Origin: an uncultured Pelagibacteraceae bacterium
Lineage (GTDB): Bacteria; Pseudomonadota; Alphaproteobacteria; Pelagibacterales; Pelagibacteraceae
Assembly: GCA_902632545.1 (NCBI GenBank)
Contig: CACPCX010000002.1
Span: 1-64,000, forward strand
Reading direction: 5' to 3'
Length of the DNA stretch: 64,000 nt
A program made the translations under genes and the position numbers. Below, piece after piece: positions 36,639-59,005 of the stretch. A model generated the notes under the pieces. That model did not search any database and was not told the origin of the DNA. It saw only the letters and a program-made list of their open reading frames with translations. Each line of letters starts with the position of its first letter. Positions within the stretch are counted from its first letter, which is position 1.

Positions 36639-38714
36639 ATGAAAGTACCACAACTTAAAAAAAAACTAGAGATAAAATCTTGTCACAATATTGAATGGGA
36701 AGATAATTATAGCTGGATTCATCAAAAAGATATTTTGGAAGTTCTAAAAGATAAATCTAAACTTGATCCTGAAGTTAAGAAGTACCTAGAGGAAGAGAAT
36801 ACTTATACAGACTTTCACTTGAAGAATACAAAAAATATTCAAAAAAAATTATTTAATGAAATTAAAGGTAGAATAAAATTGGATGATGAGTCTTTACCTT
36901 TCCAAGATCATACTTATGAATACTGGACAAAAACAACGGCTAAAGGAAATTATTCTATAAAACTGAGAAAAAAAATAGGTTCAAAAGAAATAGAGGAAAT
37001 ATGGAATGGTGATAAAGAAAAAGAAAAACTACAAACAGAGTATTTTGGTGTTGGAGATTTAGAGGTAAGTAATAACGATAAATATCTAGGATATTCTTTA
37101 GATATTAAAGGTTCTGAATATTATACAATTTATATAAGAGATATAAAATCAAACAAAATTATTTCAAAAGAAATTACAGAAACATCAGGTGGTATTACTT
37201 TTAGTTTAGATGATAAATATATATTTTATTCAAAACTTGATGAAAATCATAGAGCAAGAAAAATTTATAGACACAAAATAGGAAATTTTAATGATGAAGA
37301 TGAATTAATCTTTGAGGAAAAAAGTGAGGCTTTTACAGTTGGGATAGGAATAAGCTCAGATGAAAAGTATTATTTTATAAATAGTTCTGATCATAATACC
37401 TCAGAACAATATTATTTTGAGTCAAATGAAGAAAATCCATCTCCTAAACTTATTATTAAAAGAGAAAGAGGTGTTCTTTATTCTGTCAGCTCATGGGATG
37501 GTAAATTTTATAATCATACAAACAAAAATGCTGAAGACTTTAAAATAGATATTTGTGAAAATTTAGAAGTACAGGATTGGAAACCATTTATATTAGCTAA
37601 AGATGAGGTTTTAATTGGTGGATTAACATTTCTTAAAAATTGGATAATTCGTGGCGAAACTTCAGAAGCTTTAGATAAACTGTTTGTTAAAAATATTTCT
37701 ACGAATTTAGAAGAAGAATTAACTTTTTCTGATGAAACAGTTTATGTGCCAGGAGTTACATTAATTCAAAAAGACAGAAATACGGATGAAGTCTATTTAG
37801 GATATTCATCACCCAAAACTCCTTCTAGAGTATACAAGTACAATTTAGCAACAAAGTCTAAAGAACTTGTCAAAGAGCAAGAAATTCCTTCTGGTCATAA
37901 TAAAGATGACTATATTGTTGAGAGAGTTGAGTTTAAATCTCATGATGGAAGAATGGTTCCATTAACAATCACAAGACACAAAAAAACAAAAATTGATGGG
38001 TCTGCAAATGTTTTATTATATGGATATGGGTCTTATGGAAATTCCATGTCCCCAAGTTTTTCTTCCACAAGATTAAGTCTTATAAATAGAGATATAATTT
38101 GGGCCACAGCTCATATCAGAGGTGGAATGGAAAAAGGTATGAAATGGTGGAAGGAGGGAAAATTAACAAATAAAAAAAATACTTTTGAAGATTATATTTA
38201 TGCAGCAAAATATCTAATCGAAAAAAATTATACCTCAAAAGGAAGTATTATTGGAATGGGTGGATCGGCTGGAGGATTGTTAATGGGAGCTGCAGTCAAT
38301 CAGTCTCCTGAATTATTTTTAGGAATTATCATGGCTGTTCCTTTTGTAGATTCTTTAACAACAAATCTTGATCATTCTTTACCTTTAACTGTGGGAGAAT
38401 TTGACGAATTTGGAAATGCAAAAGAGAATAAAGAACACTTTGATTATATTTTTTCATATGCACCCTACAACAATATTAAAAAAATGGATTATCCACATAT
38501 TTTTATTACAACAAGTTTAAGTGATAATAGAGTTTTATTTGATGAACCTGCAAAGTTCACAGCAAAACTAAGAGATTACAAAACAGATAATAATTTACTT
38601 CTTTTAAAAACTGAAATGAATGCTGGTCATGGTGGAAAATCTGGAAGAGATGGCGCAATAGAAGAAATTGCTATTGACTATGCATTTGCACTTAAAATTA
38701 CAGAAAAACTTTAA
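36639..38714 (+). CDS. ptrB: S9 family oligopeptidase (oligopeptidase B-like)
   Basis: Serine peptidase of the prolyl oligopeptidase family, cutting short peptides; 691 residues without a signal peptide, so likely cytoplasmic. A seven-bladed propeller (about 70-400) precedes the hydrolase domain. The catalytic Ser is in IIGMGGSAGGLLMGAA, the Asp in SLSDNRVLFDEPAKF, and the His in MNAGHGGKSGRDG. GYGSYGNSMSPSFSS and AHIRGGMEKGMKWWKEGKL are typical of oligopeptidase B, which cleaves after Lys/Arg. It diverges from the DnaJ-like gene with a 15-base gap. Confidence 0.93.
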   Translation: MKVPQLKKKLEIKSCHNIEWEDNYSWIHQKDILEVLKDKSKLDPEVKKYLEEENTYTDFHLKNTKNIQKKLFNEIKGRIKLDDESLPFQDHTYEYWTKTTAKGNYSIKLRKKIGSKEIEEIWNGDKEKEKLQTEYFGVGDLEVSNNDKYLGYSLDIKGSEYYTIYIRDIKSNKIISKEITETSGGITFSLDDKYIFYSKLDENHRARKIYRHKIGNFNDEDELIFEEKSEAFTVGIGISSDEKYYFINSSDHNTSEQYYFESNEENPSPKLIIKRERGVLYSVSSWDGKFYNHTNKNAEDFKIDICENLEVQDWKPFILAKDEVLIGGLTFLKNWIIRGETSEALDKLFVKNISTNLEEELTFSDETVYVPGVTLIQKDRNTDEVYLGYSSPKTPSRVYKYNLATKSKELVKEQEIPSGHNKDDYIVERVEFKSHDGRMVPLTITRHKKTKIDGSANVLLYGYGSYGNSMSPSFSSTRLSLINRDIIWATAHIRGGMEKGMKWWKEGKLTNKKNTFEDYIYAAKYLIEKNYTSKGSIIGMGGSAGGLLMGAAVNQSPELFLGIIMAVPFVDSLTTNLDHSLPLTVGEFDEFGNAKENKEHFDYIFSYAPYNNIKKMDYPHIFITTSLSDNRVLFDEPAKFTAKLRDYKTDNNLLLLKTEMNAGHGGKSGRDGAIEEIAIDYAFALKITEKL

Positions 38715-41281
38715 TCCCCTTTTGGATCAATATATTTGCATCCCAAACAAGTTGCAGCAGTTGGATCATTTTCTATTCTTGGAGCATTTGGATCAGATCC
38801 ACCTGCATCAGCATCGTTTGCTGCAGCCAGTGCTTGTCCAGCTTCAGCTGCTGCATCTCTAGCTGCTTCCTGAGCAGCAGATAAAATTTCAGGGTCAGCC
38901 ATAACTTCACCAAAAATATTTAATTGTTTAAGATCACCTCCAATTATTGCTATCGTATTACCCAAAGCACCCGTAGCCTCTTTGAATTCATCAAAATCTT
39001 CTTTGGAAATTCCTGCATCAGCTAAGGCTTCAGCTGAAATACCAACCTCATCTTTTAAAATAACTTGTTCAGTTACATTTTCTTTAAGTTTATCAAGTTT
39101 ATCAAGTTTATCAGTATTTACATCTCCTAAAACTTGTAATTTTTTTTGTTTTTCCCCCATTTGGATTTTTTCTTCCAAGGTAAGTGGTCTTACAACGACT
39201 GTTATATTACCCTCGTCATCTTCAACTATTTCTATGTTCCAATTATTTTCATTACTTGTCCAATAATCATTGTATCTGCTTTGATTAAACCAGCTTTCTA
39301 CTTCTTGATCTGCTTCTTCAGAAGAATAGCCTTCATAAATTTTTTCTTGATAAACAAAAGTTCCTTCCATCCATGTATCTATATAAGCGTTTCTATTATT
39401 TATTTGTATTACTCTTGCTTGCTCTTCAGTTAATCCTATTTCAATTGCTCTATCATAAAAAGCCTGGGAAACTTGATCTGCTTCACTAAACACATCGCCT
39501 TCCCATTCAAGGGTATCTGTATTGTAATTCAAATTTTCATAAACTTTCATACTTACTTCAATATCTTTTCTAATTTCAGAGGGATTTCTAAGTTCTATAG
39601 TGGTTCCTATTAAACTATCCAAATAAGCTCCGTATGTATTTGGATCTGGCATCCAATCTTTTTCTGGATCAGCATCCTCTCCCCATCTTTCAAACCATTC
39701 GTTATAGCCATGCTCATCTGAAACAGCCCATCTTTCAACAGCCTGATCTGCTTCAGCGTATGAAAGACCTGCCGCTAGTGCTTTTTCCATAACATATGTT
39801 CCATCTAACCAAATATCTAAATAAGTTGATGCAGCATTTTTGCCAAGTATATCTGCTTGTTCATTTGTAAATCCTTTATCCAAAGCTAGGTTCCTAACAA
39901 AATCATTTACTTCATCCGCCTCAGTATAAGGGTCACCTTCTCCATCACCTTGGCCTGTCATAAAATCTTGAGTTAAATAACTAACAGTTCGTGCCATTGC
40001 TTCTTTATCTAATCTGTCTTTAGACAACTCGTAAGAGTCTATTGGACCATCACCTATTTTTGCAAACCAATCTTTTAATGCGTCAGGATTTGGTAAATAC
40101 TCATCCTCATCACCCTCATCAACTTTATAAAAATTTAAAGCCCACTCGTTGTATCTGTTATTTGGATCCAGTAGCCATTTTTCCAAAGCCTCATCAGCTT
40201 CTTCCCAAGATCCACCAGCAGCTCTTGTTTGTTCAGCAATTTCAGATCCATGAAACCACATATCATAGTAAGCAGAATATGCATTATTTGCTAACTTATT
40301 GGCTCTATCTTCAGAAAATCCAAAATTTATAGCTTCATCATAAACTGATTGTTGTACCTCTAAAGCTTCATCAACTGGTCTTCCAACTGAAATTCTATAA
40401 TCATTTTTTTCCCAGCTATAATCGTAATTTTGTAAAGTCCTAAGAGTTGCAAAGTCTCTTAGACGATCTGTATTTGGATCTAGATCTTGATATGGAGGTA
40501 ATTCCGCTGGCGGCTGTGGTACAATTGGATCAATTGGATCTGGTGTTGGGAGCACTGGGCCAGGATCATCAATTGGAGGTAATTCCACTGGTGGCTCTGG
40601 TCTAACAACAGGTGGGTCTATTATTTTGACCAAATCCTCATCTTTAAGTCCTCCAGTTTTTAAATTATCGATTGTTTCTTTTCTATCACCTTCATTTAAA
40701 ATTGCATTTTCTGAATTTAAAGCTGCATTAATCTCATTTAAACCAATCGTAGAAACATCTAAATCAGTTAATTTTTGGTTTACTGAATAAATATTCAAAC
40801 CATTCTCTTCCAGATTATTCATAGAAATCAAAATGTCTGAAGTTTTTTTTGCTCTCTTTGACTTCATCGATGTTCCAATATTAGTCATTACTTTTAATGT
40901 ATTTTCATCAATATTTTCATTGTCCTCTTCTGATGCCGTTTTAGAAAATTCATTTGGAATAACTTTAGAAATATCACCGAGATATTTATCTATAACTTTT
41001 AGAGAATCTAATAATTGTTCTTGCTTACTTAAATCTAGATTTTTTTCTGTGAATGATAATAACTGAGTTAGCTCAGATAAACTTTGATCAATTATTTTTG
41101 CTTCATTTAAATCTTGCTGTTTCAATTTATCAATTCTATTTTTGAATTTTTCAAGGCCCTCTTTGTAATTTTCAAATTCTTTTTCAATGCCTTCATTTAT
41201 AGTTTTGTCTATATCAGCAAAACAACTGCTGAAGAAAAAAAGATTAAAAAATAAAATTAAAATAAATTTTTTCATGTTCAT
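38711..41281 (-). CDS. Large exported acidic repeat protein, unknown
   Basis: An 856-residue protein that I do not recognise. It starts with a signal peptide (MKKFILILFFNLFFFSSCFA). Residues about 25-210 look helical/coiled-coil. A proline-rich linker (about 220-265) has PEPPVELPPIDDPGPVLPTP. Three imperfect repeats of roughly 80-100 residues follow, spaced about 146-149 residues apart. They are marked by YYDMWFHG (338-345), YLDIWLDG (487-494) and YIDTWMEG (633-640), each preceded by an E-x-A/RANxx helix and followed by an EADxxxE(K/R/S)W segment and YNxW. A C-terminal Ala-rich tail ends CLGCKY. Very acidic. It overlaps the 214-residue gene upstream by four bases. Confidence 0.85.
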   Translation of the reverse strand: MNMKKFILILFFNLFFFSSCFADIDKTINEGIEKEFENYKEGLEKFKNRIDKLKQQDLNEAKIIDQSLSELTQLLSFTEKNLDLSKQEQLLDSLKVIDKYLGDISKVIPNEFSKTASEEDNENIDENTLKVMTNIGTSMKSKRAKKTSDILISMNNLEENGLNIYSVNQKLTDLDVSTIGLNEINAALNSENAILNEGDRKETIDNLKTGGLKDEDLVKIIDPPVVRPEPPVELPPIDDPGPVLPTPDPIDPIVPQPPAELPPYQDLDPNTDRLRDFATLRTLQNYDYSWEKNDYRISVGRPVDEALEVQQSVYDEAINFGFSEDRANKLANNAYSAYYDMWFHGSEIAEQTRAAGGSWEEADEALEKWLLDPNNRYNEWALNFYKVDEGDEDEYLPNPDALKDWFAKIGDGPIDSYELSKDRLDKEAMARTVSYLTQDFMTGQGDGEGDPYTEADEVNDFVRNLALDKGFTNEQADILGKNAASTYLDIWLDGTYVMEKALAAGLSYAEADQAVERWAVSDEHGYNEWFERWGEDADPEKDWMPDPNTYGAYLDSLIGTTIELRNPSEIRKDIEVSMKVYENLNYNTDTLEWEGDVFSEADQVSQAFYDRAIEIGLTEEQARVIQINNRNAYIDTWMEGTFVYQEKIYEGYSSEEADQEVESWFNQSRYNDYWTSNENNWNIEIVEDDEGNITVVVRPLTLEEKIQMGEKQKKLQVLGDVNTDKLDKLDKLKENVTEQVILKDEVGISAEALADAGISKEDFDEFKEATGALGNTIAIIGGDLKQLNIFGEVMADPEILSAAQEAARDAAAEAGQALAAANDADAGGSDPNAPRIENDPTAATCLGCKYIDPKGD
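39086..39112. repeat. Triplicated 9-base repeat in the 856-residue gene
   Basis: AAGTTTATC occurs three times in tandem on the plus strand, encoding the Asp-Lys-Leu run DKLDKLDKL on the minus strand. It lies in the charged stretch just after the third long repeat. Small tandem repeats like this can expand or contract by slippage in frame. Confidence 0.8.
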
Positions 41282-41922
41282 CCCTGTAAATACTCTACAA
41301 TTCTAGCAAGTTCTTGTTTTTCTATTTTTCTTTTTAATTGACCTAAAGAATTTTTAAAATCTGAAATTATTCGTTGACGTTTTTTTAATGATTTATCAAC
41401 TTTTACTTTTTCTACATTTCCTTTTTGCAAAAAATCTGCCAAAGTCCAATAGATATTTATTGCCTCCTCTGGAGAAGCTTTAATGTCAATTCCAAGTGCT
41501 GCTCGCATCGTTTTTCTACTTTCATTAGTTTTAATGAGTGATGCGATTTTTTTTCCTCTAACAATTTTTTCAGGCCATTCTGCTTTAAATTTTTTTAAAC
41601 TAGATTGATTTTTTTTTAATTTATTTTGATAAAATATCTCAAAATAAGCCATTCCATAAATTTGATTGCCAGGATTTCTTTGATTATAAGAATCTGATCT
41701 TTTAAAAATTTTTCCCATTTCTGTTGCACTTTTATCTGATATACACTTCCAACTTATGCAACCAGTCATATGCATTTCTTCAAAACCTTTTGGATAATTT
41801 TTTGGTTTTTGAAATTCACCTAATTCACTAAGCTTTGTATTTATTAAATTTATTATATCTTGATTGGCAAAGGATAATGTTGGAATAAAAACAATTATAA
41901 AAATTAAAATAATTTTTTTCAC
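41278..41922 (-). CDS. Exported protein, unknown, partner of the 856-residue protein
   Basis: A 214-residue protein with a clear signal peptide (MKKIILIFIIVFIPTLSFA) and no other recognised family. Visible features are GCISWKCISDKS with two cysteines four residues apart (about 54-58), DSYNQRNPGNQIYGMAYFEIFYQNKL, and a Lys-rich C-terminal helical region. The stop overlaps the start of the 856-residue gene by four bases, so the two are translationally coupled and both exported. That suggests a joint envelope role, which is inference. Confidence 0.78.
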   Translation of the reverse strand: MKKIILIFIIVFIPTLSFANQDIINLINTKLSELGEFQKPKNYPKGFEEMHMTGCISWKCISDKSATEMGKIFKRSDSYNQRNPGNQIYGMAYFEIFYQNKLKKNQSSLKKFKAEWPEKIVRGKKIASLIKTNESRKTMRAALGIDIKASPEEAINIYWTLADFLQKGNVEKVKVDKSLKKRQRIISDFKNSLGQLKRKIEKQELARIVEYLQG

Positions 41923-41994: not shown

Positions 41995-42056
41995 ACTATT
42001 GGTAAGTCGCCTAATGGGGCTTGCAAAAATAAACTTGCTTAACAAAGGAGAATATT

Positions 42057-42503
42057 ATGACAAGTAAGGATCTATCTATATTTAACTCACTTAGACCTTT
42101 TTCAATTGGTTTTGATGATATGTTCGACCAATTTGAAAATATGCTAGGTAATGGAAATTTGACAATGCAGTCAAATTACCCACCATATAACATCCGAAAG
42201 ACTGGTAAGGACAATTATGCTATCGAAGTAGCATTAGCCGGTTTTAGTAAAAAAGATGTTGAGGTTGAGTTCGAAGATAATTTATTAACTGTTAGAACTA
42301 GACAAGTTGATAAATCTGAGGACAGTGACGTTAATGGAGAAATTATTCATAAAGGTATTTCTCAAAGACAATTTGCAAGATCATTCACTATAGCTGACGA
42401 TGTAAAAGTAAATGGTGCTGAACTTAAAGACGGTCTTTTAACAATATCTTGTGAAAGAATAATTCCAGAACATAAAAAAAAGAAGCTTATAGAAATTAAA
42501 TAA
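42057..42503 (+). CDS. ibpA: Small heat-shock protein, Hsp20/IbpA type
   Basis: ATP-independent holdase of 148 residues that binds unfolding proteins. It matches the IbpA subclass: LRPFSIGFDDMFDQFENML near the N-terminus, NYPPYNIRKTGKDNYAIEVALAGFSKKDVEVEFEDNLLTV at the start of the alpha-crystallin domain, and HKGISQRQFARSFTIADDVKVNGAELKDGLLTISCERIIPE with the family GxLxI motif. AAAGGAG precedes the ATG by 6 bases. An RpoH-like promoter lies upstream and a hairpin terminator downstream. Confidence 0.95.
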   Translation: MTSKDLSIFNSLRPFSIGFDDMFDQFENMLGNGNLTMQSNYPPYNIRKTGKDNYAIEVALAGFSKKDVEVEFEDNLLTVRTRQVDKSEDSDVNGEIIHKGISQRQFARSFTIADDVKVNGAELKDGLLTISCERIIPEHKKKKLIEIK

Positions 42504-42550: not shown

Positions 42551-43873
42551 TTATTTCTTTGCCATTATAGCATTCAAAGCAAATGCTAATAATCCAGCAG
42601 GTATAAGTCCCGTTGTTAACAGTAGTTTTAAACTTATTCCAAAATCTGGAATATTTTTCACAAAGTCTGGTAACAATGACATCCCAATTCCAAAAGACAA
42701 AGAAAGAGCTAAGATTAATAAATTTCTTTGATCCATTTCTGCCCTTGAAATCAATTTAATACCAGCAGCTACAATCATACCAAACATAATGATTGCTGCT
42801 CCACCTATCACTGACTCTGGCATTGCAGCAATTATTCCACCTAATTTTGGAAATAGTCCCATAAGAACTAAAACTATTCCAGCTATAGTTCCAACATGTC
42901 TACTTACAACTCCTGTAAACGCAACTAATCCAGCATTTTGTGAATAAGATGTATTTGGCATCGCATTAAATATTGCACCAAATGCAGTACCAACACCATC
43001 TGCCATAATTCCACCTGATATTTCCTTATCAGTTGCTTCTCGTTTAGCACCACCCATTGTCGTAGCACTTATATCTCCAATTGTTTCAATTGTTGTAACA
43101 ATTGACATAAACAACATTAGAATTATTGCACCAGGTACAAAATCTATTCCATATTGAAGTGGCATTGGAAATGCAAACCATGCTGCAGATGCAATTTTAC
43201 CATAGTTAACCATTCCTAGTGCTGCCGCAACTATGAAGCCGGCTACTATTCCAATTAAAATTGAAGCTGCAGAAGCCATTCCTTTGCCTCTAAGATTAAA
43301 AAAGATAGCAACTATAAACACTGAAGCAGCAACTGTTAAGTGATTTGCATTTGCAAAGATTTCAGGTTTATTGTTCATTAACCATCCACCTCCACCAGCA
43401 TACATAAAACCAACTTTAAGCAAACTAAATCCAATCATTAGCACAACTATACCAGTGACTAATGGTGGGAATAGATGCCTTATTGGTTTTAAAACTTTTC
43501 CAATAAAAATTTGAAAAATTCCTCCAATGAATGCAGCTGTAAATACTGCACCTAATCCTGCTGCTTTAAATGGCAGCATAATAGGTATAAATGCAAAACT
43601 TGTTCCTTGAACAATAGGGAGTCGTGCACCAATTTCTTTATATCCAACGGTTTGGATGATTGTTGCAACTCCCGCTACAAACAAAGCCATTTGAATCAAA
43701 AATATTTTTTGTTCAGGCGTTTGACCAAAAACTCCAGCCACAATTATAGGAACAGTTATATTACCGGCAAACATTGCTAGTACATGCTGAATTCCTAAAG
43801 GTATGGATTTATTTAATGGAAGTTTTCTATCTGGACTGTTTGTAGAGCCCGCTTTTGTTTTTCTTGAAGCCAT
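42551..43873 (-). CDS. NCS2 xanthine/uracil family permease
   Basis: Nucleobase:cation symporter-2 with 440 residues and about twelve to fourteen helices. Family markers are PLNKSIPLGIQHVLAMFAGNITVPIIVAG (with the QHVLAMF motif), IVQGTSFAFIPIMLPF, and the signature NAMPNTSYSQNAGLVAFTGVVSRHVG. Substrate selectivity in this family runs across xanthine, urate and uracil and cannot be read by eye. The adjacent purine degradation genes favour xanthine or another oxopurine. The strong Shine-Dalgarno AAGGAGG lies 6 bases before the ATG. It is separated from the lipoprotein gene by 134 bases with no recognisable riboswitch. Confidence 0.88.
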   Translation of the reverse strand: MASRKTKAGSTNSPDRKLPLNKSIPLGIQHVLAMFAGNITVPIIVAGVFGQTPEQKIFLIQMALFVAGVATIIQTVGYKEIGARLPIVQGTSFAFIPIMLPFKAAGLGAVFTAAFIGGIFQIFIGKVLKPIRHLFPPLVTGIVVLMIGFSLLKVGFMYAGGGGWLMNNKPEIFANANHLTVAASVFIVAIFFNLRGKGMASAASILIGIVAGFIVAAALGMVNYGKIASAAWFAFPMPLQYGIDFVPGAIILMLFMSIVTTIETIGDISATTMGGAKREATDKEISGGIMADGVGTAFGAIFNAMPNTSYSQNAGLVAFTGVVSRHVGTIAGIVLVLMGLFPKLGGIIAAMPESVIGGAAIIMFGMIVAAGIKLISRAEMDQRNLLILALSLSFGIGMSLLPDFVKNIPDFGISLKLLLTTGLIPAGLLAFALNAIMAKK

Positions 43874-44007
43874 TTACCCTCCTTATTAAAAAGACGTTAC
43901 ATTATTAATTATGAATTAATATAAAAAACTATTTATAATCAAATATTGTTATATTTATTAAGATAAAAAAAACCTATAATGAGCAGATTCAATTCAATCA
44001 ATGGAAT

Positions 44008-44313
44008 TTAAAAACAACCGTTAGATACAAAGCCCACAACTATATTTTCTGAATTAATTTCAAATCTGCGTTCACAAGGTACAAGGTATTTTTTACTATT
44101 ATAAACTAGCTCAAAATTCCCTTTCGCATTTTTAAAATCTTCGTCTGGTTTTCCAAGCTCCATCTGAAGTTTGCTGGATGATTTTCCAAGAAATTTACTT
44201 AATTTTTCGTTTTCTTTTTCTACAATAGCATCAGTTTTTTCTTTAACTGTTTGGCATCCTGATAAAAAAATTACGACTATTATAAGACTTATGGCTGATT
44301 TAAATTTTAACAT
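44008..44313 (-). CDS. Small putative lipoprotein, unknown
   Basis: A 101-residue protein from the ATG at 44313; the ORF-track TTG at 44325 has no advantage. The leader MLKFKSAISLIIVVIFLSGCQT has a lipobox (LSGC), so the Cys is probably lipidated. The rest has SSSKLQMELGKPDEDFKNAKGNFELVYNSKKYLVPCERRFEI, a beta-rich domain somewhat like small SmpA/OmlA-type proteins, with two further Cys (PCERR and NGCF). Function unknown. It could be an unrelated neighbour of the purine locus. Confidence 0.72.
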   Translation of the reverse strand: MLKFKSAISLIIVVIFLSGCQTVKEKTDAIVEKENEKLSKFLGKSSSKLQMELGKPDEDFKNAKGNFELVYNSKKYLVPCERRFEINSENIVVGFVSNGCF

Positions 44314-44438
44314 AAGTTTAAACAAACATTTTTTCTTAAAAAATTATTAACTTTAAAGTTGTATAAATAATTTATTTATTATTACTTTTAAGTTTAATTA
44401 TAGTAACAATTGTGTTCTTTATTTGATTGTTCAAGCAT

Positions 44439-45029
44439 ATGAATGAAAAAGCCTTAGAAAAGATACTAAATATATTTTTAAAGGAAGTTTTACCTCTCAC
44501 TGAGAGTGGTGTTGCTAAAGGTAGTAAAATATTTGGGGCTGCCATAATTAAAAAGAAAGATTTGTCACTTGTAATTGCCGAAACAAATAATGAAATAGAA
44601 AATCCATTATGGCATGGTGAGATGCATGCTCTTAAAAAGTTTTATGAATTAGAAGCAAAAACGAGACCCAATGAAAAAGATTGTATATTTTTAAGTTCAC
44701 ATGAACCTTGTAGCATGTGCTTAAGTGCAATCACTTTTTCTGGATTTGATAATTTTTATTATCTATTTCCATATGCAGCCACAAATGATGATTTTAATAT
44801 TCCACATGATTTAAATATATTAAAGGAAGTATTTAAAATTAATGATGGAGAATATAATAAAGAAAATTACTATTGGAAAAGTCAAAATATAAATTTACTT
44901 ATTGGAAATTTACCTCAATTAGAAAAAGAAAAAAAATTGAATCAATTAAACGAAATTAAAAAAAAATATCAAACTTTATCAAATCAATATCAGAAAAATA
45001 AAGATGGAAATTCTATACCATTAAATTAA
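44439..45029 (+). CDS. Cytidine-deaminase-fold protein, substrate unknown
   Basis: A 196-residue protein with the zinc-deaminase motifs WHGEMHALKKF (His-Gly-Glu in place of the usual HAE/CAE) and HEPCSMCLSAITFSGFDN (PCxxC). The catalytic Glu is kept. A 70-residue C-terminal extension is helical and charged. The ATG at 44439 is used; the ORF-track TTG at 44427 is less likely. It is 3 bases upstream of the ABC importer ATPase gene and thus probably in that operon. The importer context suggests a purine base or nucleoside deaminase, but it differs from guaD at 51159. It could also be a diverged, non-catalytic or other-substrate member. Confidence 0.8.
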   Translation: MNEKALEKILNIFLKEVLPLTESGVAKGSKIFGAAIIKKKDLSLVIAETNNEIENPLWHGEMHALKKFYELEAKTRPNEKDCIFLSSHEPCSMCLSAITFSGFDNFYYLFPYAATNDDFNIPHDLNILKEVFKINDGEYNKENYYWKSQNINLLIGNLPQLEKEKKLNQLNEIKKKYQTLSNQYQKNKDGNSIPLN

Positions 45030-45032
45030 TCA

Positions 45033-46523
45033 ATGAATACAAATCTTAAAATTTCAAATGTAACCAAAATATATCCTGGATGTGTTGCAAACGATAATGT
45101 GTCACTCGAATTTAATAGTGGCAAAATTTATGCTCTTCTTGGAGAAAATGGTGCTGGTAAATCTACCCTGGTTAAAATTCTATCAGGCGTCATCATACCT
45201 GACGAAGGTAAAATTTATTTAAATGAAAATAATCTAAAGCTTAATTCACCATTAGATGCAAAAAAAAATGATATTGGGATGGTCTTCCAGCATTTTAACC
45301 TTTTCGAAACTTTGTCTGTATTTGAAAACTTAATAATAGACTCAGGCGAACAAAAAGAAGGTTTAAGAGAAAAAATTGATTCAATTATGAGAAAATACAA
45401 TTTTTCAATTGATCTTGATATACCTGTTTTAAATCTTTCGGCAGGTCAAAAACAGAAAGTAGAGATAATTAGATGTCTAATAAGGAGTCCAAAAGTTTTA
45501 ATTATGGATGAACCAACATCTGTATTAACAGAGCAAGAAACAAGTGAATTATTTCTATCTTTGAAAAAATTTTCAGAAGAAGGGATTTTAATTATTTATA
45601 TTACTCATAAACTTAAGGAAGTTATGGAACTTTGCGATGAAGTTGCTGTAATGAGGAGAGGAAAGCTAGTTTCTGTAAGTGAGATAAAGAATGAAAATAT
45701 TGAATCACTCGCTAACAAAATGGTGGGTCAAAACTTAAAAACTATCAAGAAGAAAAAAGAAAAAAATTCATCAGATAAATTAATAAATATCACAAATCTT
45801 AATTTTATAAGCGAAGATCCATTTGAAACAAATTTGAGTGATATTAATTTTTCTGTTAATCGAGGCGAATGTTTGGGAATTGCTGGTATATCAGGAAACG
45901 GCCAAAGTGAATTATTTCAAGTATTAAGTGGTGAAATAATATCAGATAAGAATTCTATAGAATTTGATAAAAATTATATTGGAGATTTAAATCCTCAAGA
46001 GAGAAGAGAATATTTAATGGCCTTTTCTCCAGAAGATAGACTTGAGCAAGCTGCTATACCACAAATGGCAATTTTTGAAAATGTAGCTCTAAATAATTAT
46101 AAATCCTCAAACTTTTTTAATAATGGGTTAATCAATGAAAATAAAATTAAAGAGCATTCAAAAAAAATAATTTCGGACTTTAATGTTAACACAGACAACA
46201 TAGAGTTAAAAAGCCAATTTTTATCTGGAGGTAATCTGCAGAAATTAATTATAGGAAGAGAATTAATCACCTCTCCAGATTTATTAATTTGTTTTAATCC
46301 AACTTGGGGGCTAGATGTTGGAGCAATAAATTATATCCATGAAACATTGATTAAAATTAATGAACAAAATAAATCAATCATATTAATATCTACAGATACT
46401 GATGAATTATTAAAATTAAGCGATAAAATTTCAGTAATTCATAAAGGGAAATTATCAAAAATTATGGATGCTGATGAGGTTACCTCTGAAAAACTTGGGA
46501 TATTAATGGGAGGAGGAAATTGA
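45033..46523 (+). CDS. ABC importer ATPase (BMP-type nucleoside/purine system)
   Basis: A 496-residue protein with two ABC domains in tandem, as in sugar- and nucleoside-type importers (RbsA/YufO/NupO-like). Domain 1 has Walker A LLGENGAGKSTLVKIL (about 35-50) and signature LSAGQKQKVEI with LIMDEPTSVLTEQE. Domain 2 has IAGISGNGQSELFQVLSG, a Walker A lacking the Lys (typical of the degenerate second site), LSGGNLQKLIIGRELI, and CFNPTWGLDVGAI. It is followed by two permease genes and a BMP-type binding protein, completing an importer. Confidence 0.93.
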   Translation: MNTNLKISNVTKIYPGCVANDNVSLEFNSGKIYALLGENGAGKSTLVKILSGVIIPDEGKIYLNENNLKLNSPLDAKKNDIGMVFQHFNLFETLSVFENLIIDSGEQKEGLREKIDSIMRKYNFSIDLDIPVLNLSAGQKQKVEIIRCLIRSPKVLIMDEPTSVLTEQETSELFLSLKKFSEEGILIIYITHKLKEVMELCDEVAVMRRGKLVSVSEIKNENIESLANKMVGQNLKTIKKKKEKNSSDKLINITNLNFISEDPFETNLSDINFSVNRGECLGIAGISGNGQSELFQVLSGEIISDKNSIEFDKNYIGDLNPQERREYLMAFSPEDRLEQAAIPQMAIFENVALNNYKSSNFFNNGLINENKIKEHSKKIISDFNVNTDNIELKSQFLSGGNLQKLIIGRELITSPDLLICFNPTWGLDVGAINYIHETLIKINEQNKSIILISTDTDELLKLSDKISVIHKGKLSKIMDADEVTSEKLGILMGGGN

Positions 46524-47590
46524 TTAAAATTGTTAAAAGAGATGAACCTTCAAGAGCTATATTTTTCCTTACACCTGTTTTAGCAATTTTTTTAACCTTG
46601 GTAGCAGGAGGTTTAATTTTTTATATTCTAGGTTTTAAACCTTTTGAAGCCCTAAAGTTTTTTTTCATAGTTCCAATTGCAGATAAGTACGGATTCAGTG
46701 AATTACTATTAAAAGCCACTCCACTTTGTTTAATAGCAATTGGTTTATCTTTTTGTTTTAAAAGTAATAATTGGAATATTGGAGCAGAAGGTCAATTAAC
46801 TTTTGGAGCCATAGTTTCAGGGGGTGTCGCATTATTATTTTATGAACAAGAAGGATTTTATATTCTACCAATAGTTATTTTAGCTGGCGCAATTGGTGGT
46901 ATGCTATATGCGTCTATACCTGCAATTTTAAAAACTTACTTTAATACAAATGAAATTTTAGTAAGTCTTATGTTAGTATATGTTTCAAAATTAATTTTAG
47001 ATTATCTTGTTGTTGGCCCTTGGAGTAATCCAGAAGGATTTAATTTTCCTGAAACAAGACAGTTCAGTGACTCTGCAAGACTTCCGTTATTATTTGAAGG
47101 ACTAAGAATTCACGGAGGTATATTTCTAGCTTTAGCTGCAGTAGTTATGAGTTGGTTTATTTTTTATAAAACATATTTGGGGTTCCAAATGAAGGTTTCA
47201 GGTTTTAGTTTAAAGACAGCAAAATATGCTGGGTACAAAGGTAAAAAAATGATTATCCTCGTTTTTTTAATAAGTGGTGCTTGTGCAGGTTTAGCAGGAG
47301 TTGGGGAAATAACTGGACCTATTGGACAGCTTCATAGAGAAGTATCTCCAGATTATGGTTTTACTGCAATAATTGTAGCGTTTTTGGGTCGTTTACATCC
47401 TGTTGGAATAATTTTTGCATCTCTAGTTGTTGCAATTACTTATCTAGGTGCAGAAACAGCACAAATATTTATGCAAATTCCAAAATATACCGGTCAGGTT
47501 TTTCAAGGAATGATTTTATTTTTTCTTCTTGCTTCTGACTATTTACTTTTTTTTAAATTTAAATTTATAGGTTCAAAAAATGATTATTGA
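46520..47590 (+). CDS. ABC importer permease 1 (YufP/NupP-like)
   Basis: A 356-residue inner-membrane permease of the BPD_transp_2 type. It starts at a TTG at 46520 overlapping the upstream TGA; AGGAGG lies 3 bases before it and supports this start, with no ATG in this region. FKSNNWNIGAEGQLTFGAIVSGG and KYAGYKGKKMIILVFLISGACAGLAGVGEITG are typical of the YufP group. It overlaps permease 2 by 11 bases. Confidence 0.9.
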   Translation: MIKIVKRDEPSRAIFFLTPVLAIFLTLVAGGLIFYILGFKPFEALKFFFIVPIADKYGFSELLLKATPLCLIAIGLSFCFKSNNWNIGAEGQLTFGAIVSGGVALLFYEQEGFYILPIVILAGAIGGMLYASIPAILKTYFNTNEILVSLMLVYVSKLILDYLVVGPWSNPEGFNFPETRQFSDSARLPLLFEGLRIHGGIFLALAAVVMSWFIFYKTYLGFQMKVSGFSLKTAKYAGYKGKKMIILVFLISGACAGLAGVGEITGPIGQLHREVSPDYGFTAIIVAFLGRLHPVGIIFASLVVAITYLGAETAQIFMQIPKYTGQVFQGMILFFLLASDYLLFFKFKFIGSKNDY

Positions 47591-48512
47591 TGTAAATTTT
47601 GTTGGACTAATAATTGCATCAATAATGGCATCTGCTGTTCCTTTGATCCTAGCGTCTTGTGGTGAACTTATTACAGAAAGATCTGGTGTTCTAAACCTTG
47701 GTGTTGAAGGAATGATGATCATCGGTGCTATTTCAGGCTTTGCACTAATGACCGTTACTGGAAGTTTAATTATCGCAGTTTTTGGGGCAATGTTAGCAGG
47801 TGTTTTAATTTCAACAATTTTTGCATTTCTTACCCAAACATTAATTACAAATCATGTGGCAACTGGTTTAGCTCTTACTATTTTTGGAATAGGAATTTCT
47901 GCAATGATTGGAAAAAACTTTGTTGGTATTCCTGGAAAAGAGTTTCCTATTATATTTGAAGGTTTAAAGGATACAATACCACTTTTAAGTCCAATATTGT
48001 TTGGACATTCAATAGTTTTTTATTTTGCTTTTGCCCTGCCCTTCATAACTAGCTATTTTTTAAAAAAAACAAAAATTGGATTAATTGTGAGAGCTGTAGG
48101 AGACTCTCCCGAGTCTGCATCTAACCAAGGTATAAATGTAAAGTTAGTTCGTTACGCTTGTATATTATATGGTGGAGCTATGTGTGGGCTTGCAGGTGCT
48201 TATTTATCAATGATCTATACTCCACAATGGATTGAAAATATGACAGGTGGTAGGGGTTGGATTGCTTTAGCACTAGTTGTTTTTTCTACATGGAACCCAA
48301 TTAAAATTTTAATAGGAGCAATGATTTTTGGTGGATTAACAATTATTCAATTTCATATGCAAGCGATAGGTGTGAGAATTCCTGTTCAATTCTTAACTGC
48401 CCTGCCCTATATTGTAACAATAATAGTATTAGTTGTAATTTCTCGTGATAGTAGAAAAATTAGGTTAAGTACTCCGAGTTCACTGGGTAAATCGTTTTAT
48501 AAAGACAATTAA
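47580..48512 (+). CDS. ABC importer permease 2 (YufQ/NupQ-like)
   Basis: A 310-residue permease with about eight or more helices. SCGELITERSGVLNLGVEGMMIIGAISGF and LTKTKIGLIVRAVGDSPESASNQGINVKLVRY-type segments (RAVGDSPESASNQGI) are characteristic of the second permease in BMP-type systems. Together with permease 1 it forms the channel. The ATG at 47580 lies inside the end of permease 1. The binding protein gene follows after 79 bases holding a weak AT hairpin. Confidence 0.9.
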   Translation: MIIDVNFVGLIIASIMASAVPLILASCGELITERSGVLNLGVEGMMIIGAISGFALMTVTGSLIIAVFGAMLAGVLISTIFAFLTQTLITNHVATGLALTIFGIGISAMIGKNFVGIPGKEFPIIFEGLKDTIPLLSPILFGHSIVFYFAFALPFITSYFLKKTKIGLIVRAVGDSPESASNQGINVKLVRYACILYGGAMCGLAGAYLSMIYTPQWIENMTGGRGWIALALVVFSTWNPIKILIGAMIFGGLTIIQFHMQAIGVRIPVQFLTALPYIVTIIVLVVISRDSRKIRLSTPSSLGKSFYKDN

Positions 48513-48535
48513 TTATAAAATAATTATTTTTTTTT
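48511..48535 (+). terminator. Weak AT-only hairpin with T run between permease 2 and the binding protein gene
   Basis: AATTAT and ATAATT pair around an AAA loop, and nine T residues follow. With only AT pairs the stem is weak, so it may act as an attenuator or simply be AT-rich sequence. It could help the binding protein be made in excess from its own downstream promoter. Confidence 0.3.
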
Positions 48536-48591
48536 AATTTATTTAATTTAAGCTTCATCTAATTAAAAAATTAAATAGAGGAAATAAATTT

Positions 48592-49662
48592 ATGCATAAA
48601 TTATTTATTCGTTCTTTCGTCTCTTCTTTAGTTTTTTTGTTTACATTAACTGTAGCTGCAGTAGCAAAAGATGTTAAAGCAGCATTCGTTTATATTGGTC
48701 CAACTGGTGACCATGGATGGACGTACCAACATGATGTAGGTAGAAAAGCTGTAGAAGCTGCCGGATTTAAAACAACTTACGTAGAGGGTGTCCCAGAAAG
48801 TGCTGATGCTGAAAGAGTACTTAGACAATTAGCAAATTCTGGTCATGATGTTATTTTTACAACTAGTTTTGGATACATGAATCCAACAAACAAAGTTGCA
48901 AAAGAGTTTCCAAACGTTAAATTTGAACATGCAACAGGGTACAAAAGAGAGCATCCAAATGTTGCAACATATGCTGCTAGATTCTACGAAGGTAGAGCAA
49001 TCTTGGGGACAATAGCCGGTTCAATGACAAAATCTAATGTTATCGGTTATGTAGCGTCTTTTCCAATTCCAGAAGTAATAAGAGGAATTAATTCATTTAC
49101 TTTAGCTGCTCAAAAAGTAAATCCAAATATCAAAACTAAGATTGTTTGGGCATTTACTTGGTATGATCCTGGTAAAGAGGCTGAAGCTGCTAAAGCTTTA
49201 ATTGATCAAGGTGCAGATATAATTGCCCAGCATACTGACAGTACTGCGATTGTTCAGATTGCTGAAAAAGCAGGCGTCTATGCATTTGGTCAAGCAAGTG
49301 ACATGGATAAGTTTGCACCTAAAGCAGTATTGACTTCAGTTGAAAATAATTGGGGACCTTACTATGTAGAAAGAGTTAAAGCTGTAGCAAATGGAACATG
49401 GAATCAAAAAGATACATGGCATGGTATCGGTGACGGTATGGTTGTTATATCTGATCTTGACCCTTCCATTCCTAGCAATGTTCGATCAAAAGTTAAAAAA
49501 CTTCAAGCTGATTTGGCATCAGGTAAAGTTCATGCTTTTACTGGACCTATTTACGACCAAAAAGGAAATTTAATGGTTGCCGAAGGTAAAACTGCTGATG
49601 ATGGAATGCTTGCGGGAATGATGACTTATGTAAAAGGTGTTGAGGGCGATATACCTAAATAA
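48592..49662 (+). CDS. BMP family ABC transporter substrate-binding protein
   Basis: A 356-residue periplasmic binding protein of the BmpA/PnrA family. A signal peptide (MHKLFIRSFVSSLVFLFTLTVAAVA) precedes KDVKAAFVYIGPTGDHGWTYQHDVGRKAVEAAG, the family opening. PNVKFEHATGYK, YEGRAILGTIAGSMTKSNVIGYVASFPIPEVIRGINSF, and AFGQASDMDKFAPKAVLTSVENNWGPYYVERV follow. PnrA-type proteins bind purine nucleosides, and the aromatic residues here are consistent, but substrate is not provable by eye. GAGG is upstream of the ATG; a terminator follows. Confidence 0.9.
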   Translation: MHKLFIRSFVSSLVFLFTLTVAAVAKDVKAAFVYIGPTGDHGWTYQHDVGRKAVEAAGFKTTYVEGVPESADAERVLRQLANSGHDVIFTTSFGYMNPTNKVAKEFPNVKFEHATGYKREHPNVATYAARFYEGRAILGTIAGSMTKSNVIGYVASFPIPEVIRGINSFTLAAQKVNPNIKTKIVWAFTWYDPGKEAEAAKALIDQGADIIAQHTDSTAIVQIAEKAGVYAFGQASDMDKFAPKAVLTSVENNWGPYYVERVKAVANGTWNQKDTWHGIGDGMVVISDLDPSIPSNVRSKVKKLQADLASGKVHAFTGPIYDQKGNLMVAEGKTADDGMLAGMMTYVKGVEGDIPK

Positions 49663-49682
49663 GTTAAAAAATCTAAAATTTT

Positions 49683-49712
49683 AAAAGGCCGGTTTCATAA
49701 CTGGCCTTTTTT
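49683..49712. terminator. Rho-independent terminator after the BMP gene
   Basis: AAAAGGCCGG pairs with CTGGCCTTTT (one G-T pair) around TTTCATAA, ending in a T run. It lies between the convergent BMP gene and the phosphoribosyltransferase gene and touches the latter's stop codon. The opposite strand also has a T run, so it may work both ways. Confidence 0.88.
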
Positions 49713-50235
49713 ATTTATGGTGTCTTTTTTTTATTTCTTCAATCCTAAGCTCTTCGTAAATCTCAAAAGGCTGTACAATCCAAGGATCTCCTGAAAGTTT
49801 GTTTGCACAAAAATCTGGTTCAAATGTTGATTTCTTTTTTTTAAACAAAGTAGCAGTTTTTATATCCTCAATCTTATCTTTAATAGGTTCATATTTTCTT
49901 AACCAATCTATACTTTTATTAAATGTAATTCCTGTGTCTGACAAATCATCACATAAAAGTATTCTGCCACCCATATTAGGTGCGATAGAGCTCATTTCTC
50001 TTGAAAACACAATATCACCTTGTTCATCCTCTACGCCCTTACCACTATATGACTCGACAGCTAAATAGGCACATTTCAATTTGAAAATTCTACTTAAAAC
50101 ATCTATCATTGGTGCTGCTCCTCGCATAATACCAACTAAAATTGTAGGTTCATATCCACTTTCATGAATTTGAATTGCTAGTTTTTCAACCGTCTGATTG
50201 TATTCATTCCAACTAACAATTAATTTTTCTGTCAT
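49711..50235 (-). CDS. Purine phosphoribosyltransferase (xanthine/guanine type)
   Basis: A 174-residue type I phosphoribosyltransferase: SGYEPTILVGIMRGAAPMIDVLSRIF and the PRPP-binding GGRILLCDDLSDTGITFNKSIDWLRKY. SGDPWIVQPFEIYEEL at the end has the W-x-V-x-P-(F/W)-E pattern of purine PRTases, like the XGPRT (Gpt) group. It probably salvages xanthine, guanine or hypoxanthine to nucleotides. It is the last gene of the xdhA-xdhB-guaD-puuD minus-strand operon. So the locus can either salvage or degrade imported bases. Confidence 0.82.
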   Translation of the reverse strand: MTEKLIVSWNEYNQTVEKLAIQIHESGYEPTILVGIMRGAAPMIDVLSRIFKLKCAYLAVESYSGKGVEDEQGDIVFSREMSSIAPNMGGRILLCDDLSDTGITFNKSIDWLRKYEPIKDKIEDIKTATLFKKKKSTFEPDFCANKLSGDPWIVQPFEIYEELRIEEIKKRHHK

Positions 50236-50250
50236 AATTTTTATATTTAA

Positions 50251-51159
50251 TTATTTAAATAATAAAACCAAAACTGCAAGAAGGATAAGTGCGATTATTG
50301 AGGAAATTAAGAAATACAACTTATGAATGTTTCTTCCTCTTAAATTGAAATAATGTCTAGCGACTGCTGTAATTACTCCTATTGCAACTAAAATTAACCA
50401 GTTATACTTATGATAGACCAAAAAACTTGAATGCCCCGAAAGCATTATAAATAGAACCAAAAAAGTTGAGTAATTGTTGTGAATGGATCTTTGTTTAGCT
50501 GCTAAAGATAAGCTCATATCAAATTTTTCACCTCTCTCACTACTGCTAATAATATTCATTTGATTAGGTATAATTACTGTAAAAACATTTCCAAACATAT
50601 TAGTACCTATAATCAATCCAACACTTAAAATTGCAAATTTTGGACCAAATAATTTAGTCAAACCAAAAGAAACAGCAGTCAGTAAAATAATTGCTATAGA
50701 AATAAATAATAAATTATTTTCGATCAATTTAGATTTACACAAACGATCATAAATAAACCATGCAACAATCAATGATAAAAGTGAAATAATAATTGCATAA
50801 CTAGGAGGCATTAACAAAACACGTTTATCAACCATTAATACACCTGCATTATAATAATAAATTACAGCTAACAGCAACATTCCAGTTACAAAAGTTAAAT
50901 AACTTTGCCATTTAAAGATTACCAGTCTATTTAAATAATCCTGTGGTGGTGATGTTTTTAATCTTGATAACTTGTAAAAAAAACCAGAATGCATCAGATA
51001 TCCTTCACCATCGACATCATCACTTGTTATATTTTTATTTAAATTATTGTCTAAGTAATTAAATAAAAAACTATTACCTACCCATAAAATAGCGAACACT
51101 ACATGGCCCCATCTTAAAATTACTTCTAACCATTTAATAGTATAAGGTAAAAATTCCAT
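50251..51159 (-). CDS. puuD: PuuD-like urate hydroxylase, membrane domain only
   Basis: A 302-residue membrane protein matching the Urate_ox_N (DUF989) domain of PuuD, the membrane urate hydroxylase that makes 5-hydroxyisourate. VILRWGHVVFAILWVGNSFLFNYLDNN, HSGFFYKL, FKWQSYLTFVTGMLLLAVIYYYNAG, and ANMFGNVF-type NMFGNVFTVIIPNQMN with KQRSIHNNYSTFLVLFIMLSGH match the family, including conserved histidines. Known full-length PuuD ends in a cytochrome c domain. Here the ORF stops after the membrane domain, and a separate c-type cytochrome gene lies at 58640. No uricase (UOX or HpxO) gene is in the window, so this is the only urate-oxidising candidate. Confidence 0.85.
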   Translation of the reverse strand: MEFLPYTIKWLEVILRWGHVVFAILWVGNSFLFNYLDNNLNKNITSDDVDGEGYLMHSGFFYKLSRLKTSPPQDYLNRLVIFKWQSYLTFVTGMLLLAVIYYYNAGVLMVDKRVLLMPPSYAIIISLLSLIVAWFIYDRLCKSKLIENNLLFISIAIILLTAVSFGLTKLFGPKFAILSVGLIIGTNMFGNVFTVIIPNQMNIISSSERGEKFDMSLSLAAKQRSIHNNYSTFLVLFIMLSGHSSFLVYHKYNWLILVAIGVITAVARHYFNLRGRNIHKLYFLISSIIALILLAVLVLLFK

Positions 51160-51629
51160 CAGTATTTTATTTTATCTACTTTTTTATCCCAAATTTCAAA
51201 TGCTTTTAGAGCGTCATCTCTAAGCATTTGTGTCATTTTTATTTTTCTATCATCTATTTTTTTAGGAATCTCTAAATAAATAAATGAGTCATCAAAATCT
51301 ATTTTTTTTGCATCTTCTCTTGTATTTGCATAATATATTTTATCTAATCTTGACCAATAAATTGCCGAAAGACACATTGGACAAGGTTCGCAAGATGTAT
51401 AAATCTCGCAACCTGATAGATCAAAAGTATTTAATTTTTTACAAGCTTCTCGAATTGCTACAATTTCACCATGAGCAGTAGGGTCATTTGAAGAAGTTAC
51501 TTTATTAGAACCTTCTGCAATAATCTCATTATCCTTGACTATTACACTTCCAAAAGGCCCACCAATTGTATTTGCACTATTTATGGAGAGTTCAATGGCT
51601 TTTGCCATAAATTTTTTTTTATCTTCCAT
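51159..51629 (-). CDS. guaD: Guanine deaminase (CDA-fold)
   Basis: A 156-residue zinc deaminase of the GuaD type that converts guanine to xanthine. The zinc motifs are DPTAHGEIVAIREACKKL (His with the catalytic Glu; Gly replaces the usual Ala) and SCEPCPMCLSAIYWSRLDKIYYANTREDAKKIDFDDSFIY. The domain-swapped C-terminal tail ends with KAFEIWDKKVDKIKY. It overlaps the xdhB stop by 11 bases and the puuD start by one. This is an entry point from guanine into the xanthine pathway. Confidence 0.88.
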   Translation of the reverse strand: MEDKKKFMAKAIELSINSANTIGGPFGSVIVKDNEIIAEGSNKVTSSNDPTAHGEIVAIREACKKLNTFDLSGCEIYTSCEPCPMCLSAIYWSRLDKIYYANTREDAKKIDFDDSFIYLEIPKKIDDRKIKMTQMLRDDALKAFEIWDKKVDKIKY

Positions 51630-53934: not shown

Positions 53935-55371
53935 TCAATTAACTCTAGTTAACTTATTGGAATTTATTTCTATAAAACATTTCATTAACAAATTTTTAGC
54001 TATCTCTAACCTATATTCTTTACTTGCTCTCATATCTCCAATAGGACTTAAATCTTCCTCAAGATAATTTTTTGCATGGTCAAAAGTATTAATATTAAGA
54101 GGCATATTTTTAAGAACTTTTTCACATGCCTTGGCTCTTTTTGGCACTGCAGCCATACCTCCATATGCAATATATGCCTCTTTAATTTGATTATTATTAA
54201 TTTCAAAATTAAAAGAGCCACAAACAGAAGAAATATCATCATCAAATCTTTTTGAAATTTTAAAGGCTTTAAATATATTTTTTTTAAATAATGGGATTTT
54301 AATTGATCTTATAAATTCTGTTTTTTTTAGTTTAGTTTTCCTATAATCTAAAAAAAAATTATTTATTGGTATAACTTTTCTTTTATTAAAACTCTCAATT
54401 AAAATCTCAGCATTTAAAGACAATAAAATTGGTAATGAATCTCCAATTGGAGATGCTGTAGCAATATTACCTCCTATGGTACCTACATTTCTGATTTGAA
54501 CAGAACCATATCTTTTCAATACAGAATAAAAATCTGGATAATATTTCTTTATTTCATTTTCAAACTTAATTAAAGGAGTGGCTGCACCAATTTCTAAATA
54601 ATTTTTATTTACTTTAATAAAATCTAATTCTTTTATCTCTTTTAAATCTATTATAAACGGAATTTCTTTTCTTTCTTTTGTAACTGTTAAAGATAAATCT
54701 GTTCCACCTGCAAGAAAATTAAAATTAGAGTTATTTTTAATTATATTTTTTAATTCTTTGATATTTTTAGGAGAGAAGTAAACTTTATCATCTTTTTTAA
54801 TAAAAATATTATTTGGTTTGATGGTTTTTAATAATTTTATAGTTTTATTTTTATTTTTACTAAACTCATCTGTCTTATTTATCTTATTTAAACTTTTAGC
54901 AGCATCAATAATAGGTCTATAGCCAGTGCAACGACATAAATTTCCTGAAATAGAGTCTGTTATTAATTCGCTATTGTAGCTTTTATTATTCTTAAACATT
55001 GAAAACAAAGACATAACAAACCCTGGAGTACAAAATCCACATTGTGAACCGTGAAATTTCACCATTGCCTCTTGTACTGGATGAAGTTTCCCATCTTTAG
55101 AAACCAAATCCTCTACAATCAAAAGTTGTTTACCATTTAAAGATGGTACGAAAGAAATACAAGAATTAATTGAACTATATTTAACGTCATTGCTTACTAG
55201 CTCACCTAAAACAATGGTACATGCACCACAGCCACCTTCGGAGCATCCCTCCTTAGTTCCAGTTTTTTTTAATTCAGTCCTAATATAATTCAGAATTGTT
55301 TGATTAGGATCTGGGTTTTTAATTTCTAAAATTTTATCGTTCAAAAGGAACTTAACTGAATTTGATATCAC
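53935..55371 (-). CDS. xdhA: Xanthine dehydrogenase FAD/[2Fe-2S] subunit
   Basis: The small subunit (478 residues) passes electrons from the Mo site to NAD+ through two iron-sulfur clusters and FAD. The first cluster is in TKEGCSEGGCGACTIVLGE (about 37-55) and the second in HGSQCGFCTPGFVMSLFSMF with GNLCRCTGYRPIIDAA. FAD binding is in FNFLAGGTDLSL and QIRNVGTIGGNIATASPIGDSLP. The start is a GTG directly after the uraH TAA, supported by a GAGG Shine-Dalgarno about 10 bases upstream. No other start fits as well. Confidence 0.95.
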   Translation of the reverse strand: MISNSVKFLLNDKILEIKNPDPNQTILNYIRTELKKTGTKEGCSEGGCGACTIVLGELVSNDVKYSSINSCISFVPSLNGKQLLIVEDLVSKDGKLHPVQEAMVKFHGSQCGFCTPGFVMSLFSMFKNNKSYNSELITDSISGNLCRCTGYRPIIDAAKSLNKINKTDEFSKNKNKTIKLLKTIKPNNIFIKKDDKVYFSPKNIKELKNIIKNNSNFNFLAGGTDLSLTVTKERKEIPFIIDLKEIKELDFIKVNKNYLEIGAATPLIKFENEIKKYYPDFYSVLKRYGSVQIRNVGTIGGNIATASPIGDSLPILLSLNAEILIESFNKRKVIPINNFFLDYRKTKLKKTEFIRSIKIPLFKKNIFKAFKISKRFDDDISSVCGSFNFEINNNQIKEAYIAYGGMAAVPKRAKACEKVLKNMPLNINTFDHAKNYLEEDLSPIGDMRASKEYRLEIAKNLLMKCFIEINSNKLTRVN

Positions 55372-55722: not shown

Positions 55723-55770
55723 AAAATTATAGTATCATTTAAATTTCAAACTTAAATTATTTAAAATTAT
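55723..55770. promoter_or_regulatory. Divergent promoter region between the two purine-catabolic operons
   Basis: Forty-eight bases separate the uraH and uraD start codons, so promoters for both operons must lie here or overlap. The sequence is nearly all A and T with an imperfect inverted repeat AATTT-CAAACTT-AAATT. No established operator motif is recognised, and no repressor gene is nearby. Confidence 0.5.
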
Positions 55771-58635: not shown

Positions 58636-58639
58636 TTTA

Positions 58640-58960: not shown

Positions 58961-59005
58961 TACAAATTTGGTATCATAAATTAAAAAATTAAAAAGAAGA
59001 ATTAA

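Follow-up and report, generated by a model that had tools for sequence, protein, structure and literature searches.

A two-gene cassette encoding an exported repeat protein and its helical partner is gained, lost and swapped at fixed chromosomal places in SAR11 bacteria

Introduction

SAR11 bacteria dominate the surface waters of the ocean with a very small set of genes, yet an exported pair of proteins is carried by some of them at fixed sites and exchanged between lineages. The locus described here lies in a stretch of 64,000 nucleotides from an uncultured Pelagibacteraceae bacterium (referred to below as the window) and raises the question of what the larger member of this pair is, what it is related to and what it might do. 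The original prediction, made from the DNA letters, held it to be an unrecognised exported protein with three long repeats, and argued that a gene kept in a trimmed genome was likely to have a real role.

Results

Gene B contains three homologous repeats

The features of the cassette, its two boundaries and the nearby genes referred to below are as follows.

36639..38714, + strand: putative prolyl-oligopeptidase-family peptidase, named from its sequence; left cassette boundary
38711..41281, - strand: gene B, exported repeat protein, 856 aa (stop-free ORF translation)
38714..39184, - strand: Ala-rich C-terminal tail of B, residues 700-856; model confidence low
38738-38749, - strand: Cys pair C845/C848 (CxxC) of B
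39185..39595, - strand: repeat 3 of B, residues 563-699
39596..40039, - strand: repeat 2 of B, residues 415-562
40040..40486, - strand: repeat 1 of B, residues 266-414
40487..40621, - strand: proline-rich linker of B, residues ~221-265; evolves fast
40622..41215, - strand: N-terminal helical domain of B, residues 23-220; common to the whole family
41216..41281, - strand: signal peptide of B, residues 1-22, predicted by eye
41278..41922, - strand: gene A, exported all-helical partner, 214 aa; GTG start, signal peptide
42057..42503, + strand: putative HSP20-type small heat-shock protein, named from its sequence; right cassette boundary
45033-49662: nucleoside-type ABC transporter, read from sequence
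51619-55371: xanthine dehydrogenase, read from sequence

The hydropathy of B is at its maximum at residue 6, and the profile gives no transmembrane segment after the signal peptide. The protein is strongly acidic, as had been predicted, with a calculated pI of 4.19, and the proposed proline-rich hinge corresponds to the linker at residues ~221-265. The terminal CxxC is not a conserved motif, as the cysteine pair at the end is C-x8-C or C-x3-C in relatives and is lacking in some homologues. Signal peptides predicted on both A and B make the suggested assignment as a marine envelope protein plausible.

Comparison of the repeats by Smith-Waterman alignment against 500 shuffles gave Z scores of 25.1 for repeats 1 and 2, 16.7 for repeats 1 and 3 and 24.1 for repeats 2 and 3 (Gumbel P <= 3e-10). 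Profiles built from one single repeat retrieve both of the others, with values of 1.5e-18 for repeat 2 and 3e-10 for repeat 3 when the profile is that of repeat 1. Together these results rule out that the likeness arose by chance. The repeats start at residues 266, 415 and 563, giving a spacing of 149 and 148 residues. The unit is longer than originally described: it starts ~30 residues further towards the N-terminus, where there is a DRL..A..RT helix together with a predicted beta-hairpin. A possible variation in repeat number was not borne out: all six relatives with complete repeats have three (L001-L005 and L028, the last a more distant relative with its cassette at another place in its genome). 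In the AlphaFold model of B, which is only moderate over the whole chain (pLDDT 64.7, pTM 0.50), the repeats mostly have a pLDDT of 80-95 and each contains a 31-residue central helix (residues 324-354, 473-503 and 619-649).

Among close relatives repeats 1 and 2 are the most constrained parts of B, with dN/dS of ~0.04-0.16, synonymous sites being near saturation for the distant pairs. The linker and tail give ~0.3-1.2, the tail approaching 1 between sub-types. Purifying selection on these two repeats is better evidence for a role of B than its retention in a small genome; the latter argument is not supported, the cassette being accessory and missing from most relatives.

The N-terminal domain of B is paired or fused with gene A

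While the repeats and the novelty of B had been recognised from the outset, the partner gene, the shared N-terminal domain, the fusions and the island behaviour had been missed. Gene A immediately precedes B in the direction of transcription and shares 4 bp with its start (ATGA), and the two genes are translationally coupled. An A-type protein accompanies the B N-terminal domain at 30 of 30 distinct loci with an uncut upstream region, separated by a gap of -41 to +5 bp (mostly -4 to +3); some of these loci were found through A itself, and the pairing rule holds too for the set found with the profiles of B or its N-terminal domain. The A proteins are 214-331 aa long, with one member being a 529-aa frame, and signal peptides, judged by eye, are present on A and B in essentially all family members.

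The part of B that is paired with A, residues 23-220, is also the part that is fused to it. In nine further proteins (L035, L041-L048) the A domain and the B N-terminal domain are found in one chain. The clearest case is L035, where a single ORF matches A over residues 24-217 (3e-67) and the N-terminal domain over residues 219-422 (1e-30); in L041-L048, of which L041 is the weakest, A matches at ~1e-30 and a divergent N-terminal domain at ~1e-12 to 1e-5. The AlphaFold model of the L035 fusion, for which an alternative alignment that misplaced helices was dropped for another, has a pLDDT of 89.6 and a pTM of 0.80 and is all-helical except for two short strands, one per domain. The pTM, taken with the fusions, suggests that A and the N-terminal domain are in direct contact. 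The trees of the two domains agree (r = 0.74, Mantel 0/2000), which could follow from linkage alone. Two A proteins also have a SHOCT-like N-terminal segment (for example L026 6280-7113), its best E of 0.0016 being under Pfam reporting strength.

A constant base carries differing passengers

When 300 genomes of the same genus were searched with a profile, further genomes matched over the first ~200 residues only, with the remainder differing (698-1649 aa). The N-terminal domain is thus the shared element, inherited in common across the family, the repeats being one passenger type among several. Long coiled coils form the passenger in L023, L026, L027, L036, L038 and L039, and in L022, L024 and L032 a coiled coil is combined with degenerate 149-residue units. 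In L025 and L037 it is built of 45-residue repeats, in L082-L090 it is Met/Gly-rich and the B protein of L034, from a single-contig genome, has almost none, being 319 aa in all. Passenger type largely tracks the clades of A and the N-terminal domain, so passengers are not freely shuffled.

Some of these passengers have features of their own. The arrays of ~45 residues (L025 6965-9040 and L037 2292-3785) have the consensus YGAGEVDxPTLTGxWxDELSPRGHSIYxSM and no clear relative. Met, Gly and Ala are extremely abundant in the L082-L090 passenger, and gene A is divergent in these loci. In L023 a second gene-A homologue and another coiled-coil protein, of which only the end is present before the contig breaks off (15480-17793), stand across NAD-kinase-like and DmdA-like genes from the first cassette. 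There are apparently two cassette copies in one region of this genome (G078), and its HSP20 site is occupied by a cassette as well.

The family and the fold of the base are new to the databases searched

No family was found for B in Pfam (best E 0.026, 14.9 bits against a cut-off of 27) or above cut-off in NCBIfam, the best PHROGs match was only 0.0043, on a coiled segment, and neither A nor B matched PADLOC. Against PDB sequences, profiles of the N-terminal domain, gene A, whole B and the repeat gave a best E of 0.039, to a designed helical bundle. Foldseek found nothing at E <= 0.001 in the PDB, using the models of B and the fusion, or among the viral models of BFVD, where the best of any match was 0.018. 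Weak Pfam matches to DUF7161 and a transpeptidase, and NCBIfam matches to gene A, were set aside as chance or coiled-coil noise. PHROGs coiled-coil matches and SMC/JetC matches to the coiled-coil passengers were likewise treated as noise, and Pfam matches on the 45-residue repeats of L025 were set aside, each being a partial match recurring along the array.

The ORF, the repeat statistics and the family searches all agree with the description of B as an unrecognised exported repeat protein, and neither the profile search with the repeats nor structure prediction of the whole chain led to a characterised family. As far as the tools used can detect, both the protein family and its base fold are new, the fold in respect of the PDB and viral models. 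A literature search found the A-B pair nowhere described, which is weak evidence as coverage was thin for subscription journals. Gene A, the B N-terminal domain and the 149-residue repeat would each deserve a Pfam entry, and the base has no solved relative.

The cassette is exchanged at fixed chromosomal places

The peptidase gene is convergent to B, the two overlapping by 4 bp at the B stop, and the HSP20 gene is divergent from A. Close relatives of the cassette (L001-L005) are present in five SAR11 single-cell genomes and, where the contigs are long enough, have the same order of HSP20, gene A, gene B and convergent prolyl-oligopeptidase-type peptidase. In 11 genomes of the same genus the site is empty, with HSP20 ~100 bp past the peptidase and nothing between, and alignment shows the HSP20-side intergenic sequence to be common to filled and empty sites. 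The site hosts two unrelated cassette types, that of the window and that of L022, L024 and L032. A second site, upstream of tuf and near NAD-kinase-like and DmdA-like genes (named by inspection), hosts the coiled-coil and 45-residue-repeat types.

The DNA identities of B and of the peptidase are discordant. L004 and L005 are 0.915 identical in B and 0.769 in the peptidase, whereas the window and L005 are 0.706 identical in B and 0.916 in the peptidase. The identity of L005 to the window rises from 0.39 to 0.94 exactly at the junction of B and the peptidase, where that to L004 falls. L005 combines a B gene of the L004 type with a peptidase of the window type, which is allelic exchange through recombination in the flank and the one clear event of its kind. 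The same site thus holds alternative content or is empty, and there is homologous recombination at its boundary.

The cassette is sparsely distributed. The N-terminal domain (E <= 0.001) is found in 16 of the 152 near-complete genomes of the order, strong gene-A matches (E < 1e-10) in ~20 of 397 genomes and the 149-residue repeat in 4 of 297. Matches to the gene-A profile within model positions 1-110, seen in many genomes, were read as signal-peptide or low-complexity matches and not as relatives. A class-wide search with gene A (289 genomes) and a phylum-wide search with the repeat (299 genomes) each returned the window's own genome only, and these searches, with those of phages and plasmids, found no relative beyond the Pelagibacterales. 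The cassette is an accessory island, gained, lost and swapped at fixed chromosomal places in SAR11.

Discussion

The explanation that we favour, and to which we would give about an even chance, is that A and B, encoded in cassettes exchanged by recombination, form a complex of two exported subunits, its base constant and its exposed part variable, that serves an interaction at the envelope or surface. A and B would be exported by Sec, as predicted from their signal peptides, placing B outside the inner membrane, and would then join in one complex. Gene A and the B N-terminal domain would make up the constant all-helical base, with a fold that has no PDB match, most simply seen as an assembly module, while the variable remainder would meet something outside. 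Here B would add the proline-rich linker, the three constrained repeats and the fast-evolving tail as the exposed part that gives specificity, and in other SAR11 lineages the same base would carry different passengers. Whole cassettes would be inserted, lost and exchanged through homologous recombination in the flanking genes. The likely role would be an envelope or surface interaction favouring difference, such as contact, capture or the avoidance of phages or grazers. A more tentative proposal, possible in our view, is of a hitherto unknown protein-based surface system with a helical base of new fold and interchangeable passengers, which is kept at low frequency by phages or predators that recognise its common versions.

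The cassette has neither an outer-membrane anchor nor a gene for dedicated secretion linked to it, and B may therefore remain periplasmic. This is the starting point of the main rival explanation, in which A and B are a periplasmic scaffold, a structural or spacing element whose geometry is set by passenger length and which has no role at the surface. The presence of Sec signals only, with no later transmembrane segment and no linked outer-membrane exporter, the helical or coiled-coil nature of most passengers and the SHOCT-like segment in two A proteins would all be consistent with it. It would however be unusual for such an element to be an accessory gene carried by roughly one in ten near-complete genomes and to undergo allelic exchange, and the passengers are too dissimilar, L034 having almost none and that of L082 being Met/Gly-rich. 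We regard it as doubtful, while still deserving serious consideration.

It would seem improbable that the repeats instead bind a nutrient, metal or polymer, with the cassette acting as a niche-specific aid to uptake. The strong constraint on repeats 1 and 2 and the purine-uptake and -degradation gene set nearby in the window would fit such a capture protein, but no transporter is linked inside the cassette, the peptidase and HSP20 neighbours stay the same whatever the passenger type and there is no resemblance to known binding folds.

The conserved N-terminal part and dissimilar C-terminal parts are also reminiscent of polymorphic toxins and contact-dependent antagonism, where a variable C-terminal effector follows a conserved N-terminus. 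This reading is very improbable, as no toxin family was found in Pfam, NCBIfam or the other libraries searched, the C-terminus here is an Ala-rich tail of low model confidence and the partner gene is upstream and constant. Nor is there a downstream immunity gene, the next gene being the convergent peptidase whose stop overlaps that of B. Least probable of all, and rejected, is derivation from a phage, for instance from a gene for a tape-measure or tail protein: tape-measure proteins are among the weak, non-significant BFVD fold matches, but IMG/VR pattern scans and tblastn of 50,697 phage records and of plasmids gave no relative, there are no surrounding phage genes and signal peptides are present.

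Returning to an exported complex with an exposed variable part, the closest parallel is with the replacement flexible genomic islands of aquatic bacteria, which typically encode exposed structures and are swapped by homologous recombination, plausibly driven by phages (PMC4033161), the O-chain cluster of the Pelagibacterales being a case (PMC11898729). The cassette shares with them a fixed site, strain-specific content, recombination in the flanks and, on the favoured reading, an exposed product; it differs in consisting of two genes for exported proteins of a new family and not of genes for polysaccharide synthesis. In its site and its recombination at the boundary it conforms to the definition of such an island, and the exposure of its product would complete the likeness. 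Should the cassette form an exposed structure, it would match the variable O-chain island as an equivalent coded in protein, and would give direct access to the interactions of SAR11 with grazers, phages or particles.

Two-partner secretion (TpsA/TpsB) and CdiA-type systems likewise have adjacent genes and an exported protein with a conserved N-terminal part and a variable remainder. In contrast to these, gene A encodes a helical protein of 214-331 aa (one 529-aa frame) and not an outer-membrane barrel, and it can be fused to the N-terminal domain. No TpsB-type barrel of ~500-600 aa lies beside B, where the partner is the 214-aa helical protein and the flanks are the peptidase and HSP20. Pfam gives neither a TPS beta-helix domain nor any other significant match in B, the N-terminal domain being modelled as helical with high confidence in the fusion. 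Nor does it give an autotransporter or type V beta-barrel at the C-terminus, where the Ala-rich tail is helical or of low confidence. The giant extracellular proteins of Apilactobacillus (PMC12863079) are also large, exported, lineage-specific helical-repeat proteins of a small genome, whereas B is far smaller, has a Gram-negative host and is accompanied by gene A; no homology between them and B was found in the families searched. Within SAR11, the hypervariable regions HVR1-4 (PMC2217521) are variable loci with many unknown and secretion-related genes, and the genes listed in the part of that account considered here do not name the A-B pair or its flanks. The cassette accounts for one set of the 'hypothetical proteins' at SAR11 variable loci.

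Two further observations concern the neighbourhood of the cassette. A short hairpin-like sequence, AAGTCGCC-TAAT-GGGGCTT, lies at 42004-42022 just upstream of the HSP20 ribosome-binding site and is present in filled and empty sites; it has no match in Rfam and is possibly an RNA thermometer. Beyond HSP20, at 42551-60021, is the purine-uptake and -degradation gene set, its members named from their sequences. In addition to the ABC transporter and xanthine dehydrogenase listed above it includes a xanthine/uracil permease and urate oxidase-like, guanine deaminase-like, HIU hydrolase-like, OHCU decarboxylase-like, allantoicase-like, ureidoglycolate lyase-like, PuuE-like and XdhC-like genes. Aerobic purine degradation has been described in one SAR11 genomospecies (PMC7318151).
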